Assembly (NCBI RefSeq): GCF_026616205.1
Contig: NZ_JANHGR010000001.1
Span: 1,302,001 to 1,366,000 of the forward strand
Length of the DNA: 64,000 nucleotides
Reading direction: 5' to 3'
Origin: Halolamina litorea
GTDB lineage: Archaea; Halobacteriota; Halobacteria; Halobacteriales; Haloferacaceae
Shown: piece by piece, positions 3,360 through 54,516 of the stretch
Layout of the letters: each line of letters starts with the position of its first letter
How positions within the stretch are numbered: position 1 is the stretch's first letter
Program-made: the position numbers and the translations under genes
The notes under the pieces: generated by a model
Databases searched by the model: none
What the model saw: only the letters and a program-made list of their open reading frames with translations
What the model was told of the DNA's origin: nothing

Positions 3360-5300
3360 ATGAGCGAGAACCCTGTCGGCGAGGACGCCGACACCACCGA
3401 GGGCGGTTCGCCCTCGGACCGTCGGGATGTTCCCGACGACGCGACGCTTGTGTACGATCTCGATCCCGACTGTACCGTCGACGACGTTGCCGAGGGCGCC
3501 CGCTATCTCGTCACCGTCAACGGCGTGGTCGACTACGGCGTCTTCGTCGACGTCTCCGACTCCGTCTCGGGGCTGGTACACGAGTCCGGCCTCTCGGGGG
3601 AGTACGCGGTCGGCGACGAGTTCGTCGTCCGACTGACCGAGATCCGCGAGAACGGCGACATCGCGTTCGAGGAGGTCGACCCCGCCGACAACCAGGTCGT
3701 CCGCGTCGAACACGAACCCGAGATCACCCTCATCGACGACCTCCGCCGCGGCGAGGACGCCGTCGTCGAGGGCGAACTGACCCAGATCAAACAGACCGGC
3801 GGGCCGACGATCTTCCACGTCGGCGACGAAAGCGGCATCGTCGCCGCCGCGGCGTTCGAGGAGGCCGGCGTGCGCGCCTACCCCGAAGCCGAACTCGGCG
3901 ACGTGGTCCGTGTGGCCGGCGAGGTCGGCCTCCACGACGGCGTCCGCCAACTGGAAGTCGAGGACGTGACTGTGCTCGACGGCGAGACCGCCGAGGCTGC
4001 TCGCGAGCGACTCGACGAGGCCCGAACCGAGCGCGCCGGCCCCGAGGCCGTCGACCCGCTGGTCGAGTGGCCCGAGTTCGAGAAGCTCCGACCGGACCTC
4101 GAGGACCTCGCGCGCCTGCTCCGCCGGACGGTGCTCGAAGGGCGCCCGATCCGCGTGCGCCACCACGCCGACGGCGACGGGATGTGCGCCGCGGTCCCGG
4201 TCCAGCGCGCCCTGGAGAACTTCATCGAGGAGGTCCACGCCGACCCCGACGCCGGCCGCCACCTGTTCAAGCGACTCCCCTCGAAGGCGCCGTTCTACGA
4301 GATGGAGGACGTGACCCGCGACCTCAACTTCGCGCTGGAGGGTCGCGCCCGCCACGGCCAGCAACTCCCGTTCCTGCTGATGCTGGACAACGGGAGCACC
4401 GAGGAGGACACCCCAGCTTACCGGAACCTCGCTCACTACGACATGCCCATCGCGGTCGTCGACCACCACCACCCCGACCCCGAGGCCGTCGACCCGCTGC
4501 TCGACGCCCACGTCAACCCCTACCTCTACGACGAGGACTACAGCATCACCACGGGGATGATGTGTGTCGAACTCGCGCGGATGATCGACCCGACGATCAC
4601 CGACGACCTGCGACACGTCCCGGCCGTCGCCGGCGTCTCGGACCGGTCCCGCGCCGACGCGATGGCCGACTACGTCGACCTCGCCGAGTCCGAGGGGTAC
4701 GACCGCGACGACCTCGACGACATCGGTGAGGCGCTCGACTACGCGGCCCACTGGCTGCGCTACTCCAGCGGCCACTCGGTCGTCAACGACGTGCTCAACG
4801 TCGGCTGCGACGACGAGGAGCGCCACGAGGAACTGGTCGAGTTCCTCTCCGGGCGCGCGGCCCGCGACGTCGACGAACAGCTCGACGCCGTCGAGGACCA
4901 CGTCGACCACGAGACGCTCGAAAGCGACGCCCACCTCTACCGGATCGACCTCGACCGCTGGGCCCACCGCTTCACCTACCCCGCCCCGGGGAAGACGACC
5001 GGCGAACTCCACGACACGAAGGTCCAGGAGACCGGCGACCCGGTCATCACGATCGGCTACGGCCCGGACTTCGCCGTCCTCCGGAGTGACGGCGTCCGAC
5101 TCGACATCCCGCGGATGGTCGAGGAACTCAACGAGGAACTGCCCGGCGCCGGCGTCTCCGGCGGCGGCCACCTCGTTGTCGGCTCGATCAAGTTCGTGAA
5201 GGGCCGCCGCGAGCAGGTGATCGACGCGCTGGTCGAGAAGATGGCCGACGCGGAGATCGACGAGGCGCTCTCGTCGACGGCCGCGGCGCTGGACGACTGA
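3360..5300 (+). CDS. RecJ-like DHH-family nuclease with two OB folds
   Basis: The 646-residue protein starts with an acidic tail, then an S1-type OB fold (about 47-95; YGVFVDVSDSVSGLVHESGL), a second OB fold (about 130-205) and a DHH phosphoesterase core. Metal motifs are HHADGDG (about 265), LMLDNGST (about 342) and DHHHPD (about 367), and a DHHA1-type SGGGH lies near 600. This is the domain set of archaeal RecJ/GAN-type single-strand exonucleases, which act in DNA repair or at the replisome. Haloarchaea carry several paralogues, so the exact one is not assigned. The ATG at 3360 has a TATA-like CTTAAC 27 bases upstream; longer in-frame starts are unlikely. Confidence 0.88.
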   Translation: MSENPVGEDADTTEGGSPSDRRDVPDDATLVYDLDPDCTVDDVAEGARYLVTVNGVVDYGVFVDVSDSVSGLVHESGLSGEYAVGDEFVVRLTEIRENGDIAFEEVDPADNQVVRVEHEPEITLIDDLRRGEDAVVEGELTQIKQTGGPTIFHVGDESGIVAAAAFEEAGVRAYPEAELGDVVRVAGEVGLHDGVRQLEVEDVTVLDGETAEAARERLDEARTERAGPEAVDPLVEWPEFEKLRPDLEDLARLLRRTVLEGRPIRVRHHADGDGMCAAVPVQRALENFIEEVHADPDAGRHLFKRLPSKAPFYEMEDVTRDLNFALEGRARHGQQLPFLLMLDNGSTEEDTPAYRNLAHYDMPIAVVDHHHPDPEAVDPLLDAHVNPYLYDEDYSITTGMMCVELARMIDPTITDDLRHVPAVAGVSDRSRADAMADYVDLAESEGYDRDDLDDIGEALDYAAHWLRYSSGHSVVNDVLNVGCDDEERHEELVEFLSGRAARDVDEQLDAVEDHVDHETLESDAHLYRIDLDRWAHRFTYPAPGKTTGELHDTKVQETGDPVITIGYGPDFAVLRSDGVRLDIPRMVEELNEELPGAGVSGGGHLVVGSIKFVKGRREQVIDALVEKMADAEIDEALSSTAAALDD

Positions 5301-38283: not shown

Positions 38284-40335
38284 TCAGGGCGTCGGCTGTT
38301 CGCTGACCGGGAACACGAGGTCGACCACCGTTCCGTGTGGGTCGTTGTCCCTGATGCGCACCTCGCCGCCGTAGCTCGCCATCATCTCGTGGACGAGGTA
38401 GAAGCCGAACCCGTTCCCGGGGTCAGAGAGGTTCGCCTCGCCGGCCGTGAGCAACTCCCGCTTCTGGTCGTCCGGGATCCCCGGGCCGTCGTCGGCGACG
38501 TGGATCGTGAGCGTTCGCTGGCTCTCGCGCCGACCACCGTCGCTCAGTGCCGCCGGCGTCCGACGACGGTCACGGACGCCGTCGCTCGGGAGCCGTTGGC
38601 TGGCCCGAGTGGTCCAGACCTCGACTTCGGGTTCGCCGTCGCTGTGTTCGACGGCGTTCTCGAGGACGTTCCCGATCACTTCCCCGAGTACGTCGTCGGC
38701 GGTGACGTGCAGGTCGGCGTCGGGGAGGTCGTGTACGTCGAAGGTGGCGTCGTAGCGCTTCGAGGCGCGTGTGAGCTGTTCGGAGAGCGTCGCCCGGATC
38801 GGCACCGGTTCGAGCGGCCGGTCGTGCAGCGCGGCGTCCATGAACGCCCGGATGGTGTCGATCAGGTCGGTCATCTCGTCGACGCGGCTCCGGATCACCG
38901 AGAGGTGTTCCTCTGCCTCGGGGCCGTCGACGCCGGCGTCGAGGTGTTCGATGCGGGCGTTCACGAGGTTCAGCCCGTTGAGAAGGTTGTGCCGGACGAC
39001 GCGGTTGACGAACTCGAGGCGCTCACGCTCGTGGGCGAGTTCGCGCCGGTCGCTCCCGAGTTCGTAGCCGACCCACGCCGCGAGCAGTTCCGTGAGCGCG
39101 CGCTCCCACGCAGTCGCCGGGGTGCCGACACGGTCGAGGAAGGTGAGCACCGCGACGGTGTCGGCGTCACCAGAACGCGGAGCGTTCTGGTTGCCCGCAG
39201 AGCTTCGCTCTGTGACGTCGACGACGACGGGTGCGGCGACGTACGTCTGGAAGGAGGAGCCGGCACCGTGGTCGAACTCGAAGCCGCCGGTGACGGCGTC
39301 GCTCCCGGCGGGGCCGTCGCTCGATCCGGTCTGGAGTCCGCCGGCGTCGACCACGTCTTCGACGGAGCGGATGTGGAGGTCGGGGACGGCGTCGCCGGCC
39401 GTGGGGTCGACGGTGTCAGAGCGGACGGTTTCGATGGAGCGGTCGCCGTCCAGTCGCGTGACGGCGGCGTAGTCGGCGTCGAGGTACTCCCGGCCGGCGT
39501 CGAGGATGCGGCCGACGGGGTCGGGGTCCTCCGTCTCTCTGGGGAGGCGGGCAAGCCCCTCGAGCGCGTCGAAGGCCTCGCGCTTCTCGGTCACGTCGGG
39601 GTACTCCTCGATCCAGCCGCCGGCGTGGAGGCCGTCCTCGATCCGGTGGCGGGAGCGCTCGACCCACTGTGGCTCCCCGGCGGTACGAACCCGGTAAGCC
39701 GGGTCGTCGGCGTCGGGGATTCGCTGGGCAGGGGTGAGAACCTCGCCGAGTACGGCGTCGCGCCCGCGGCCGACGGCCGACTCGTGGTCGATGTCGAACG
39801 TCTCCGCGGCTGCCGCGTTGAGCCACGCGATCCGGCCGTCGGCGTCGACGACGATGGTGGCGACCGTCGAGGAGTCGATGACCTCCATCGCGAGTTCGCG
39901 GTGGGCGGTCTCGTCCCGCCGGGCGGCCTCGCTGCGGCGCTCCTTCTCGACGTTCAACACGGCCGTGGCGAACGCCAACAGGCCGGCGATCAACACGCCG
40001 TCGATGGCGATAACGTACTGGGTCGGGTCGCCCGTGCTCCAGAGGGCCGTCGCCCACCCGGCCAAGACGGCCGCGGCGACGGTCACCCCGTACGTCTGGA
40101 CGACGACGCTGTTCAGGTGGTCGGTCTCCCACTCCCGTGTGGCGAGCCACGCGCCGCCGACGAGGAGGGACATGGCGATGCTGGAGACAGCGAGACTCCC
40201 CGCGAGCGTCTCCGGTCCCCACGGATCGGGAACAGTAGGGGCGAGGTCCGCTGCGGGGAGCGCGAGCGCGAGCATCCCGAGCAGCGAGATCGCGCCGCCG
40301 CGGAGCCACCGACCGCGACGGCTCGTACTGTGCAT
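38284..40335 (-). CDS. Membrane sensor histidine kinase (PAS-GAF-HK)
   Basis: The 683-residue kinase has four N-terminal membrane helices (about 10-125), a PAS domain (about 150-250), a GAF-type domain (about 270-425) and the HisKA-like H box RVVRHNLLNGLNLV with His449. The ATPase domain has N box VLENAVEHSD, G1 DDGPGIPD and GFGFYLVHEM. It autophosphorylates and passes phosphate to the HalX regulator downstream. Within the GAF region a block of about 17 residues (TERSSAGNQNAPRSG) comes from a palindromic insertion and interrupts a beta strand run. Confidence 0.9.
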   Translation of the reverse strand: MHSTSRRGRWLRGGAISLLGMLALALPAADLAPTVPDPWGPETLAGSLAVSSIAMSLLVGGAWLATREWETDHLNSVVVQTYGVTVAAAVLAGWATALWSTGDPTQYVIAIDGVLIAGLLAFATAVLNVEKERRSEAARRDETAHRELAMEVIDSSTVATIVVDADGRIAWLNAAAAETFDIDHESAVGRGRDAVLGEVLTPAQRIPDADDPAYRVRTAGEPQWVERSRHRIEDGLHAGGWIEEYPDVTEKREAFDALEGLARLPRETEDPDPVGRILDAGREYLDADYAAVTRLDGDRSIETVRSDTVDPTAGDAVPDLHIRSVEDVVDAGGLQTGSSDGPAGSDAVTGGFEFDHGAGSSFQTYVAAPVVVDVTERSSAGNQNAPRSGDADTVAVLTFLDRVGTPATAWERALTELLAAWVGYELGSDRRELAHERERLEFVNRVVRHNLLNGLNLVNARIEHLDAGVDGPEAEEHLSVIRSRVDEMTDLIDTIRAFMDAALHDRPLEPVPIRATLSEQLTRASKRYDATFDVHDLPDADLHVTADDVLGEVIGNVLENAVEHSDGEPEVEVWTTRASQRLPSDGVRDRRRTPAALSDGGRRESQRTLTIHVADDGPGIPDDQKRELLTAGEANLSDPGNGFGFYLVHEMMASYGGEVRIRDNDPHGTVVDLVFPVSEQPTP
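39165..39217. repeat. Palindromic coding element, copy 1 (in sensor kinase)
   Basis: Two hairpins stand side by side: CCAGAACGC-GGA-GCGTTCTGG (39170-39190) and CAGAGC-TTC-GCTCTG (39198-39212), separated by seven bases. They are bounded by CGTCAC (39165-39170) and GTGACG (39212-39217). The reading frame stays open through it. The right 37 bases align without gaps to copy 2 at 53.8 kb. Confidence 0.8.
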
Positions 40336-52557: not shown

Positions 52558-53892
52558 CTACGGCTCGCCGGTGGCTCGCGTCGGCGTCGACTCGGGAAGG
52601 AACAGCAGGTAATCGAACGTCGCCGGGAGGTCAGTCCGGGCGTACCCTACTCCCTCGTCAGCGGTCGGGTCGAACACCGACCCGACACACCGCGTTCGTC
52701 GTGGTTCGCCGAGCCAGTCCGACAGTCGCTCGTCAGTGGCTGCGGCGTCGAGGTCGAGCAGGAACGGCGCGTCGTCGACGCCCGCGAACGCCGCGGTCGC
52801 GCTGCGCTCGGCTGGCTCGCCAACCGAAAAGGTCCCCAGATCGCCGCTCTCTGCCCCGACCGCACGGAACGAGCCCTGCCCGAAGTCGACCCCGACCGGC
52901 CGGTAGCCGTCGCCGAGTTCCGCGCTGAGTCGCTCGCCCATCGCGGTCGCGTCGGCCCAGACCGTCCCGTCGTCGAACGTCCCGCGGCCGACGTGGCTGT
53001 CGTGAGCCCAGAGCGCCACGCCGGAGCCAGAGTCCCGCTCCAGCGCCCACAGCGCGTTCTCGGCCATGAACCGATCGCGGGCCGCCATCCCTTCGGGGTG
53101 GGGGCCGGGCTGTTGGTGCCGGACTCGCGCCCACTCGGTCGCCTGCTCGATCACCCGGCAGAAGTGGCGGGCCCTCCGCCACGCTTCCGGCGATGACCGG
53201 CGCTGGTAGGCCTCTCGGTTCGCCTCCACTCTGTCGGTGAGCGTCGCCGCGGCCGCGGCAACGTCGTCCAAGGTGCGTTCGCGTTCGGCCTCGTCGTCAG
53301 GGACCGTCGTGTTGGAAACGGCCCGGAACGCATCACTCCCGGTGGTGTCGGGATCGACCCGCTCGAAATAGCTGCCGAGCGGTGCTGCCGGCGTCGATGG
53401 TGCCGAGAGGTCGACGCCGTGAACGCGGACCTGTTCCTCGGCGGGTCGGCCGCGGTTGAATCGCCGGAGCCACGTGAGGAGATCCCTGACCGACTCGGTT
53501 TGCCACTGCCACATGTCGAGTTCGGCCAGCGACGACTCGGGGCTGTCCGGGGCGTCGTCGACGGGGTCGGCACGAACGAACGCGTCCAGGGCCGTCGCCG
53601 CCGCGGCGCCGGCCTCGAACCCGACCGTCCGGAAGCCACAGTCGGCCACGAGCCACTGGATCAGGCGGGCCTTGTGCCGGAAACACTCCCGAGTCCCGTG
53701 AGTCGCTTCACCGAGGCCGACGATTTCGGCATCGGCGAGCGCCGGTGGGTACGGGGCGCTATCCACTTCGCCGGTGCCGTCAGACTGCCTCTGACTGCCT
53801 GCAGAGCTTCGCTCGGAAACGTCGCTGCCCGGCCGAGGGATGGGCAGGGAGTGGTCGACGAGCGCGGCACGAACCCGGGAAGGGCTGGACAT
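52558..53892 (-). CDS. Erythromycin-esterase-family protein
   Basis: The 444-residue hydrolase-like protein has the family motifs IVGLGEATHGTRECFRHKA (about 52-70, with active-site His and Glu), FRTVGFEAG, HGVDLS and ALWAHDSHVGRG (about 285). Family members include macrolide esterases and a succinoglycan-associated group; most environmental members have no proven substrate. In-frame ATGs at 53925 and 53943 could extend the head. The segment SERSSAGSQRQSDG near residue 27 is encoded by palindromic element copy 2. Confidence 0.82.
   Translation of the reverse strand: MSSPSRVRAALVDHSLPIPRPGSDVSERSSAGSQRQSDGTGEVDSAPYPPALADAEIVGLGEATHGTRECFRHKARLIQWLVADCGFRTVGFEAGAAAATALDAFVRADPVDDAPDSPESSLAELDMWQWQTESVRDLLTWLRRFNRGRPAEEQVRVHGVDLSAPSTPAAPLGSYFERVDPDTTGSDAFRAVSNTTVPDDEAERERTLDDVAAAAATLTDRVEANREAYQRRSSPEAWRRARHFCRVIEQATEWARVRHQQPGPHPEGMAARDRFMAENALWALERDSGSGVALWAHDSHVGRGTFDDGTVWADATAMGERLSAELGDGYRPVGVDFGQGSFRAVGAESGDLGTFSVGEPAERSATAAFAGVDDAPFLLDLDAAATDERLSDWLGEPRRTRCVGSVFDPTADEGVGYARTDLPATFDYLLFLPESTPTRATGEP
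53777..53823. repeat. Palindromic coding element, copy 2 (in erythromycin-esterase-like gene)
   Basis: An imperfect hairpin GTCAGA-CTGCC-TCTGAC (53779-53795) is followed by CAGAGC-TTC-GCTCGG (53802-53816) and AAACGTCG. The right 37 bases align without gaps to copy 1 (about three quarters identical), sharing GCAGAGCTTCGCTC. On the coding strand both copies give a (T/S)ERSSAG peptide core. Confidence 0.78.
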
Positions 53893-53986
53893 GGACGTGG
53901 CTGGTGACCGGAACGGCAGAAGCATGCCGATCCGGTGTGGCATACCGTGACAACATTTACCAACCATGGAACCGTAGAGACAGCCG

Positions 53987-54103
53987 ATGGTCGGCCCACA
54001 GTTCGCCTGTAAGGAGTGCGCTCGGACGGTGAGTAACCTCTCGTACCGCGCTGCCTGCCCGGATTGTGGCGGCGAACTCGACCGACAGCGACGCGCGACG
54101 TGA
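53987..54103 (+). CDS. 38-residue zinc-ribbon protein
   Basis: The tiny protein has two CxxC knuckles, FACKECART (8-11) and AACPDCGGEL (24-27), spaced as in rubredoxin-like zinc ribbons. The TATA-like AACATTTACC (53953-53962) is about 29 bases before the ATG, so it has a real promoter. Its TGA overlaps the GTG of the next gene (GTGA), meaning the two are coupled. Small zinc fingers of this size are common in haloarchaea and some affect biofilm or swarming; the target here is unknown. Confidence 0.75.
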   Translation: MVGPQFACKECARTVSNLSYRAACPDCGGELDRQRRAT

Positions 54104-54516
54104 GTGTGGAGCCCCGGCGGATCCGCTCGCTCGCGGTCACCCGCGAGGACGCCGTCGCCGCGTACGAAGCCCGCGAGCGTGGCCGCAAGCCAACCGTACT
54201 CCGCGTCGTTGCGCCCCTCTCCGGGCGGATGCGTGCCCGACTCCACGTCGCCACCGAAGCGCCCGGCCCAAACGAACTCCACCTCCACCCGGCGACGTTC
54301 GTCGCCGACCCGCCGCCGTTCCCCGAGGTCGACGAGACCGAGGACGAACTCCGGGAGTGTGGGGAGTACGACCTCGACCGACACCGAGCGGCCCACGAGC
54401 GGGCGGTCGCCGAGTGGCGCGAAACCGTCTCGGCACAGCTCCGTGAGCGGATCACGCTCCCGCCGACCGACGACGCGGACGAGGGCCACGAGGTCACGGT
54501 CAGCTACTTGGGCTGA
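54100..54516 (+). CDS. Haloarchaeal protein of unknown function (138 aa)
   Basis: This soluble protein is translated from a GTG that overlaps the stop of the zinc-ribbon gene. It has a beta-rich first half (RRIRSLAVTREDAVAAYEAR; TVLRVVAPLSGRMRARLHV) and a charged helical second half (YDLDRHRAAHERAVAEWRE). There are no cysteines or catalytic motifs. Coupling implies it acts with the zinc-ribbon protein. Confidence 0.72.
   Translation: MSVEPRRIRSLAVTREDAVAAYEARERGRKPTVLRVVAPLSGRMRARLHVATEAPGPNELHLHPATFVADPPPFPEVDETEDELRECGEYDLDRHRAAHERAVAEWRETVSAQLRERITLPPTDDADEGHEVTVSYLG

Follow-up and report, generated by a model that had tools for sequence, protein, structure and literature searches.

A 51-nt segment within a sensor histidine kinase gene of Halolamina litorea is, judged by analogy with other copies of its family, a short palindromic mobile element, non-autonomous and of the CGTC-tagged REP type, that has inserted into the gene. 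A decayed segment in an erythromycin-esterase-like gene of the same window (the whole stretch of 64,000 nucleotides that was analysed) is probably a second member. It is highly likely that copy 1, and probably copy 2, are mobile insertions of this type, mobilised in trans and filtered by selection for reading frame. The family has a defined hairpin architecture, is dispersed, and occupies sites that are empty in sister orthologues; the insertion boundaries can be read in DNA, and the copies within genes are restricted to one frame.

Two segments in the window

The two segments, their parts and their host genes lie as follows.

38284-40335, minus strand: host gene of copy 1, PAS/HATPase sensor histidine kinase (Pfam PAS_4, HATPase_c)
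39165-39215, plus strand (canonical orientation): copy 1, putatively inserted CGTC-tagged hairpin dimer, 51 nt = 17 codons (sequence, covariance model)
39165-39168, plus strand: left CGTC tag of copy 1 (sequence; direct repeat with 39216-39219)
39169-39191, plus strand: hairpin A of copy 1, ACCAGAACGC-GGA-GCGTTCTGGT, 10-bp stem and 3-nt loop (sequence, family alignment)
39192-39197, plus strand: linker TGCCCG of copy 1, conserved middle of TGGCA/TGCCA type (sequence)
39198-39212, plus strand: hairpin B of copy 1, CAGAGC-TTC-GCTCTG (sequence)
39216-39219, plus strand: right-hand junction CGTC of copy 1, putative target copy (sequence; analogy to empty-site alignments)
52558-54489, minus strand: host gene of copy 2, erythromycin-esterase-like protein (Pfam Erythro_esteras, 5.7e-68; orthologues)
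53778-53819, plus strand: copy 2, probable decayed member with degenerate hairpin A, 42 nt = 14 codons (sequence; shared 14-mer at 53801-53814)
53820-53823, plus strand: right-junction CGTC of copy 2 (sequence; direct repeat with 53778-53781)

Copy 1 reads CGTC-ACCAGAACGC(GGA)GCGTTCTGGT-TGCCCG-CAGAGC(TTC)GCTCTG-TGA on the plus strand, followed by the second CGTC, and is translated by the host gene on the minus strand as VTERSSAGNQNAPRSGD. It lies between the PAS and HATPase domains of the kinase, whose flanking DNA has codon scores of 33 and 30 and is free of stops. The covariance model of the family matches it at 39163-39219 with 52.8 bits (E = 1.1e-14). Sister genomes were searched for a full-length kinase orthologue with an empty site and none was found, orthologues being scarce; the insertion of copy 1 is therefore argued by analogy. 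Copy 2 reads VSERSSAGSQRQSD on the minus strand and is located near the N-terminus of the esterase-like protein, upstream of the conserved domain. The covariance model did not detect it, even at E = 10. Its probable membership in the family is based on the 14-mer that it has in common with copy 1, the CGTC repeats on either side, the same frame with the peptide SERSSAG, and the absence of the segment from two sister esterase orthologues. The preliminary description had reported the same unit in both genes, at 39165-39217 and 53777-53823. Both segments are present there; copy 1 is canonical and copy 2 only a decayed probable member, and the limits have been refined to those listed above, between CGTC repeats. 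The comparison with orthologues lacking the insert, also proposed there, thus gave a result for the esterase and none for the kinase.

The 3.02 Mb genome contains the exact 14-mer GCAGAGCTTCGCTC only at its two places in the window, because the stems vary between copies while the pairing is kept. This string had been suggested for a genome search, and used alone it would therefore have mimicked a refutation, returning two copies only; a 121-nt query around copy 1 and the covariance model recover further copies. Conservation in the family lies in the CGTC tag, the linker and the base-paired architecture, and not in the 14-mer. When up to 2 mismatches were allowed in the window alone, the 14-mer had 2 matches against 0.98 expected, and 23 shuffles reached 2. 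This is within chance, and it is the wider family that carries the argument. When up to 3 mismatches were allowed, control matches outnumbered the true ones, and this search was dropped. The window count would suit a reading in which the shared segments are chance similarities or convergent peptides produced by haloarchaeal codon bias. The E-values of the model (1e-14 to 1e-24), the zero matches of a reversed control pattern in 391 Halobacteria genomes, and the exact insertions relative to orthologues speak against such an origin, which is extremely improbable overall. It is contradicted for copy 1, and for the decayed copy 2 it is possible with a low probability.

Architecture of the element

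Copies of the family follow the order CGTC tag, hairpin A, linker of 4-6 nt (TGGCA type), hairpin B, and (G/A)ACG. Common arms of hairpin A are ACCAGAACGC or ACCAGAAATC, and the common hairpin B is GACGAGAGCC with its variants. Among family copies, loops are overwhelmingly of 3 nt and stems of about 6-11 bp, mostly 7-10 bp. The unit is 42-57 nt long and forms a head-to-head dimer of two unlike hairpins with the CGTC tags outward; at some sites, four or more hairpins form arrays in which the linkers alternate. The inner linker reads TGGCA or, on the opposite strand, TGCCA, and therefore one unit bears a CCA tail. Tag and dimer were assessed in 74 copies recovered by a pattern limited to hairpin A and the first part of the linker, the flanks being examined afterwards. 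CGTC was exactly in place in 65 of these copies (background 1.5%), the exceptions including two CCTC and one TGTC, and in 67 another hairpin lay within 36 nt (background 5.3%). Pairing in 78 distinct elements matched by the model, a set that leans towards pairing, amounted to 1521 Watson-Crick, 11 G-T and 13 other mismatched cells, with substitutions on both sides at many stem pairs; earlier pair counts used sequences chosen for perfect stems. The rarity of G-T pairs would favour a DNA palindrome over a function at the RNA level, in a sample biased towards perfect pairing. Family-wide, loop types occur in complementary pairs (TTC/GAA, TCC/GGA).

Distribution

The 121-nt query had matches in all seven Halolamina genomes, with 35 in one of them. 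In the genome of H. litorea, the covariance model gave 33 matches, which represent about 20 distinct sites, and in three sister genomes 157, 104 and 125; these are counts over both strands among the matches listed and not exact copy numbers. The stem pattern (hairpin A and the linker start) was present in 65 of 391 Halobacteria genomes, representing 26 of 86 genera. The element had been described as dispersed, and these figures agree, including more than 100 matches in each of the three sisters among those listed. No matches were obtained in viral contigs and phages. On plasmids, all 14 weak peptide matches were in haloarchaeal records, nearly all of them in stretches without a listed gene. 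The host group of the element includes genetically tractable species.

Empty sites and insertion boundaries

Eight sets of sister orthologues have clean empty sites at the DNA level, with inserts of 51 or 57 nt. In H. litorea itself, a 51-nt segment of an ABC transporter gene is missing from five aligned sister orthologues, which run without interruption through TTCTAC-GACGTCGAC or a near variant of it. The alignment is gapped at this position also in ABCB4, a distantly related ABC transporter of solved structure. NIF3 carries a 57-nt insert with an empty site in the sisters, and 57-nt inserts with clear boundaries are found in GlmM, UspA, DsbA, AroE, DapA and a FAA-hydrolase-like protein. The insert is also missing in sister orthologues of AKR, a GNAT and a uracil-DNA-glycosylase-like protein, in a less certain alignment. 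Boundaries in AroE, AKR and RlmE are among those read by eye from the sequences. At the sites read, the two junctions have a CG in common, and empty sites resemble TCGR^CGYCG when read on the canonical strand, with longer direct repeats (GACG, GACGTNGAC) at some sites. Clear empty sites with precise insertion boundaries are thus provided at the DNA level, and the earlier proposal of insertion into genes holds for these other family copies, including the one in the ABC transporter.

The DapA insert is common to two species (G004 and G005), with unchanged stems and differing loops. One loop of this insert (L216, L224, about 1500-1570) is TTC in one species and the reverse complement GAA in the other, suggesting a possible inversion of the hairpin. 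In the sister G006, a HAD-like gene (L036:605-1771) has two separate insertions, one of which is a multi-hairpin array. In Halorientalis marina, a histidine kinase carries an insert at its N-box (L161, about 3836-3895) with an apparent flanking direct repeat encoding AVEHGST. The SDR genes of Haloferax marisrubri and Halobium salinum (L183, L186) have inserts at the same position with unlike stems.

Reading frame and length

Intragenic copies were classified strictly, with codon scores taken from flanking DNA only and both flanks coding on one strand. All 14 such copies are frame-continuous in one of the six frames, with the peptide ...SSANQNAxRSGD... and decayed forms of it, and neither frame-broken nor opposite-strand insertions occur among them. 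A looser classification with 21 unique intragenic copies gave the same single-frame result once a false positive of the dimer finder (L127, 4729) had been excluded. The inserts add a hydrophilic peptide of 14-19 residues with the consensus DVDESRRLSSANQNASRSGDV. Stop codons occur in only one of the six frames of the consensus element and therefore do not explain the restriction. Where insert length could be measured between the tag anchors, it is a multiple of three in 12 of 12 intragenic copies vs. 45 of 92 intergenic ones (binomial probability about 2e-4, hand calculation). The preliminary description had suggested selection against disruptive insertions, and the single frame and the lengths support it. 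We infer that the restriction is due to selection on the peptide; it could also partly be target preference, because GAC/GTC codons fix the phase of CG targets. The core enzymes RlmE and DapA and the ABC transporter bear a foreign peptide of 17-36 residues, apparently under strong selection for frame.

The majority of copies lie outside genes. Haloarchaeal-type genomes are usually of high coding density, and the mostly non-genic location despite this density suggests that damaging insertions have been lost, to which target choice may contribute.

Comparison with known repeats

Di Nocera et al. (2013) have described CGTC-tagged REPs as a super-family that includes RPE-4 and RPE-6 of Rickettsia and dRS3 of Neisseria; it was reported from bacterial phyla only, and haloarchaea are not named (PMC3733652). 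These REPs have stems of 8-9 bp, loops of 4-5 nt (other lengths in some species), an unpaired tail of CCA type, and the tag variants CCTC and TGTC (PMC3733652). HH dimers, with tags outside, predominate; heterodimers are common, some units are intragenic, and no dedicated transposase is associated with them (PMC3733652). The Halolamina element is alike in the tag and its variants, the compensated stem variants, the outward-tag heterodimers, the intragenic copies, and the lack of a flanking transposase gene (Y1 transposases being the ones tested). Its stems of mostly 7-10 bp overlap with the range of these REPs without equalling it; its loops are of 3 nt instead of 4-5 nt. It also differs in the archaeal host, the fixed short spacer, the arrays, and the use of one reading frame only. 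CGTC-tagged REPs are the closest known kind, likened by tag, dimer layout, in-frame insertion and the lack of a transposase.

The comparison with Rickettsia palindromic elements made in the preliminary description proved apt, as RPE-4 and RPE-6 belong to the CGTC-tagged super-family and have the tag and dimer layout in common with the element. RPE-1 and others are alike as short palindromes inserted in frame into functional protein genes and unlike in host domain and size, RPEs being described as about 150 bp (PMC10969869). GTAG REP/BIME/REPIN elements with RAYT are also dispersed, non-autonomous pairs of opposed hairpins; the tag of the Halolamina element is CGTC instead, and its own genome has no Y1 match. 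In Archaea, subclass 1.1 of TnpA was the only one observed, and the subclasses of RAYT type have not been reported (PMC6006769). RepRanger (2025) covers archaea, and no haloarchaeon is named in the main text (PMC12306157). No report of elements of CGTC REP type in archaea was found in the main texts of the openly licensed literature, and as far as that literature shows, the type is here extended to Archaea. Tentatively, CGTC REPs may form one class across bacteria and archaea, with a putative mobiliser other than Y1/RAYT, that has repeatedly given haloarchaeal core enzymes in-frame linker peptides.

Mobilisation and spread

Y1_Tnp (PF01797) was searched and had no match in the genome of H. litorea or in G002, both of which carry copies of the element. 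Y1 transposases are found in five of the seven genomes of the genus, G004 having one Y1 match vs. 157 element matches among those listed. No intact Y1 locus is flanked by dimers, a dimer being present near a single, damaged locus (L409). The occurrence of Y1 transposases does not follow that of the element. The question of what mobilises CGTC REPs is sharpened, because a copy-bearing genome has no recognised Y1 transposase. These data also bear on whether the element is a PATE, i.e., a terminal-only remnant of an IS605-type transposon mobilised by TnpA/TnpB, as in Haloquadratum. According to the sections of PMC3119063 consulted, PATEs and SMRs are small haloarchaeal repeats without a transposase or target duplication, PATEs reaching down to 52 bp as terminal-only forms with near-terminal palindromes, similar in size and hairpins to the element here. 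In the same sections, PATEs are tied to IS605 ends, and SMR-As, of about 110 bp, have terminal inverted repeats, unlike the Halolamina element, and in-frame intragenic insertion of either is not reported. The presence of Y1 transposases in most genomes of the genus would fit a PATE, whereas the two copy-bearing genomes without a Y1 match and the intact Y1 loci without flanking dimers do not; the conserved outward CGTC tags around a fixed short linker would also be expected of REP dimers more than of two unlike transposon ends joined by fusion. A PATE origin is quite unlikely.

A REP-type element would be copied to new places by a putative factor supplied in trans and inserted at a CG, apparently in the TCGR^CGYCG context, leaving a direct repeat of a few bases at most. 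By analogy with REP and IS200/IS605 biology, copying may be transposition-like, via a single-stranded hairpin intermediate. Most genic insertions would then be lost, the survivors being multiples of three in a single orientation and frame that encode a hydrophilic peptide.

Identical dimers are found where the flanks are unrelated (e.g., L244/L251 and L257/L271), and together with the empty sites they indicate that the unit itself is copied. Gene conversion or recombination among resident palindromes, as a means of spread that needs no transposition, is hard to reconcile with them, as clean insertions at sister-empty sites cannot derive from the conversion of a resident palindrome. Such conversion has in its favour some identical dimer pairs whose flanks are alike, as duplication or gene conversion would leave them, and the double insert of RlmE, which is present at the same site in two species with unlike module content. 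It is further favoured by two near-identical four-hairpin arrays in one sister genome. As the sole means of spread it is nevertheless improbable, and copying of a REP-type unit in trans is preferred. The two arrays (L034:484-586 and L034:1453-1586; G004:C1, about 526,800 and 527,770) are 1 kb apart with the same module order, one of them inside the RlmE gene, and differ only in loops, one stem base and one linker base. Arrays, too, can therefore be copied or converted.

Many intergenic dimers of three sister genomes (L044, L055, L062, L068, L073, L075, L079, L082) lie inside a larger recurring context, with GCGGTGGCGGTGGACGCCTCGC on one side and GGGGGGAGGGGTGGGGAC on the other, perhaps another repeat family serving as a target. 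Dimers of two sister genomes (L067, L085, L093, L095) lie in another recurring intergenic context, GGGACTGAAAGGGGCTG.
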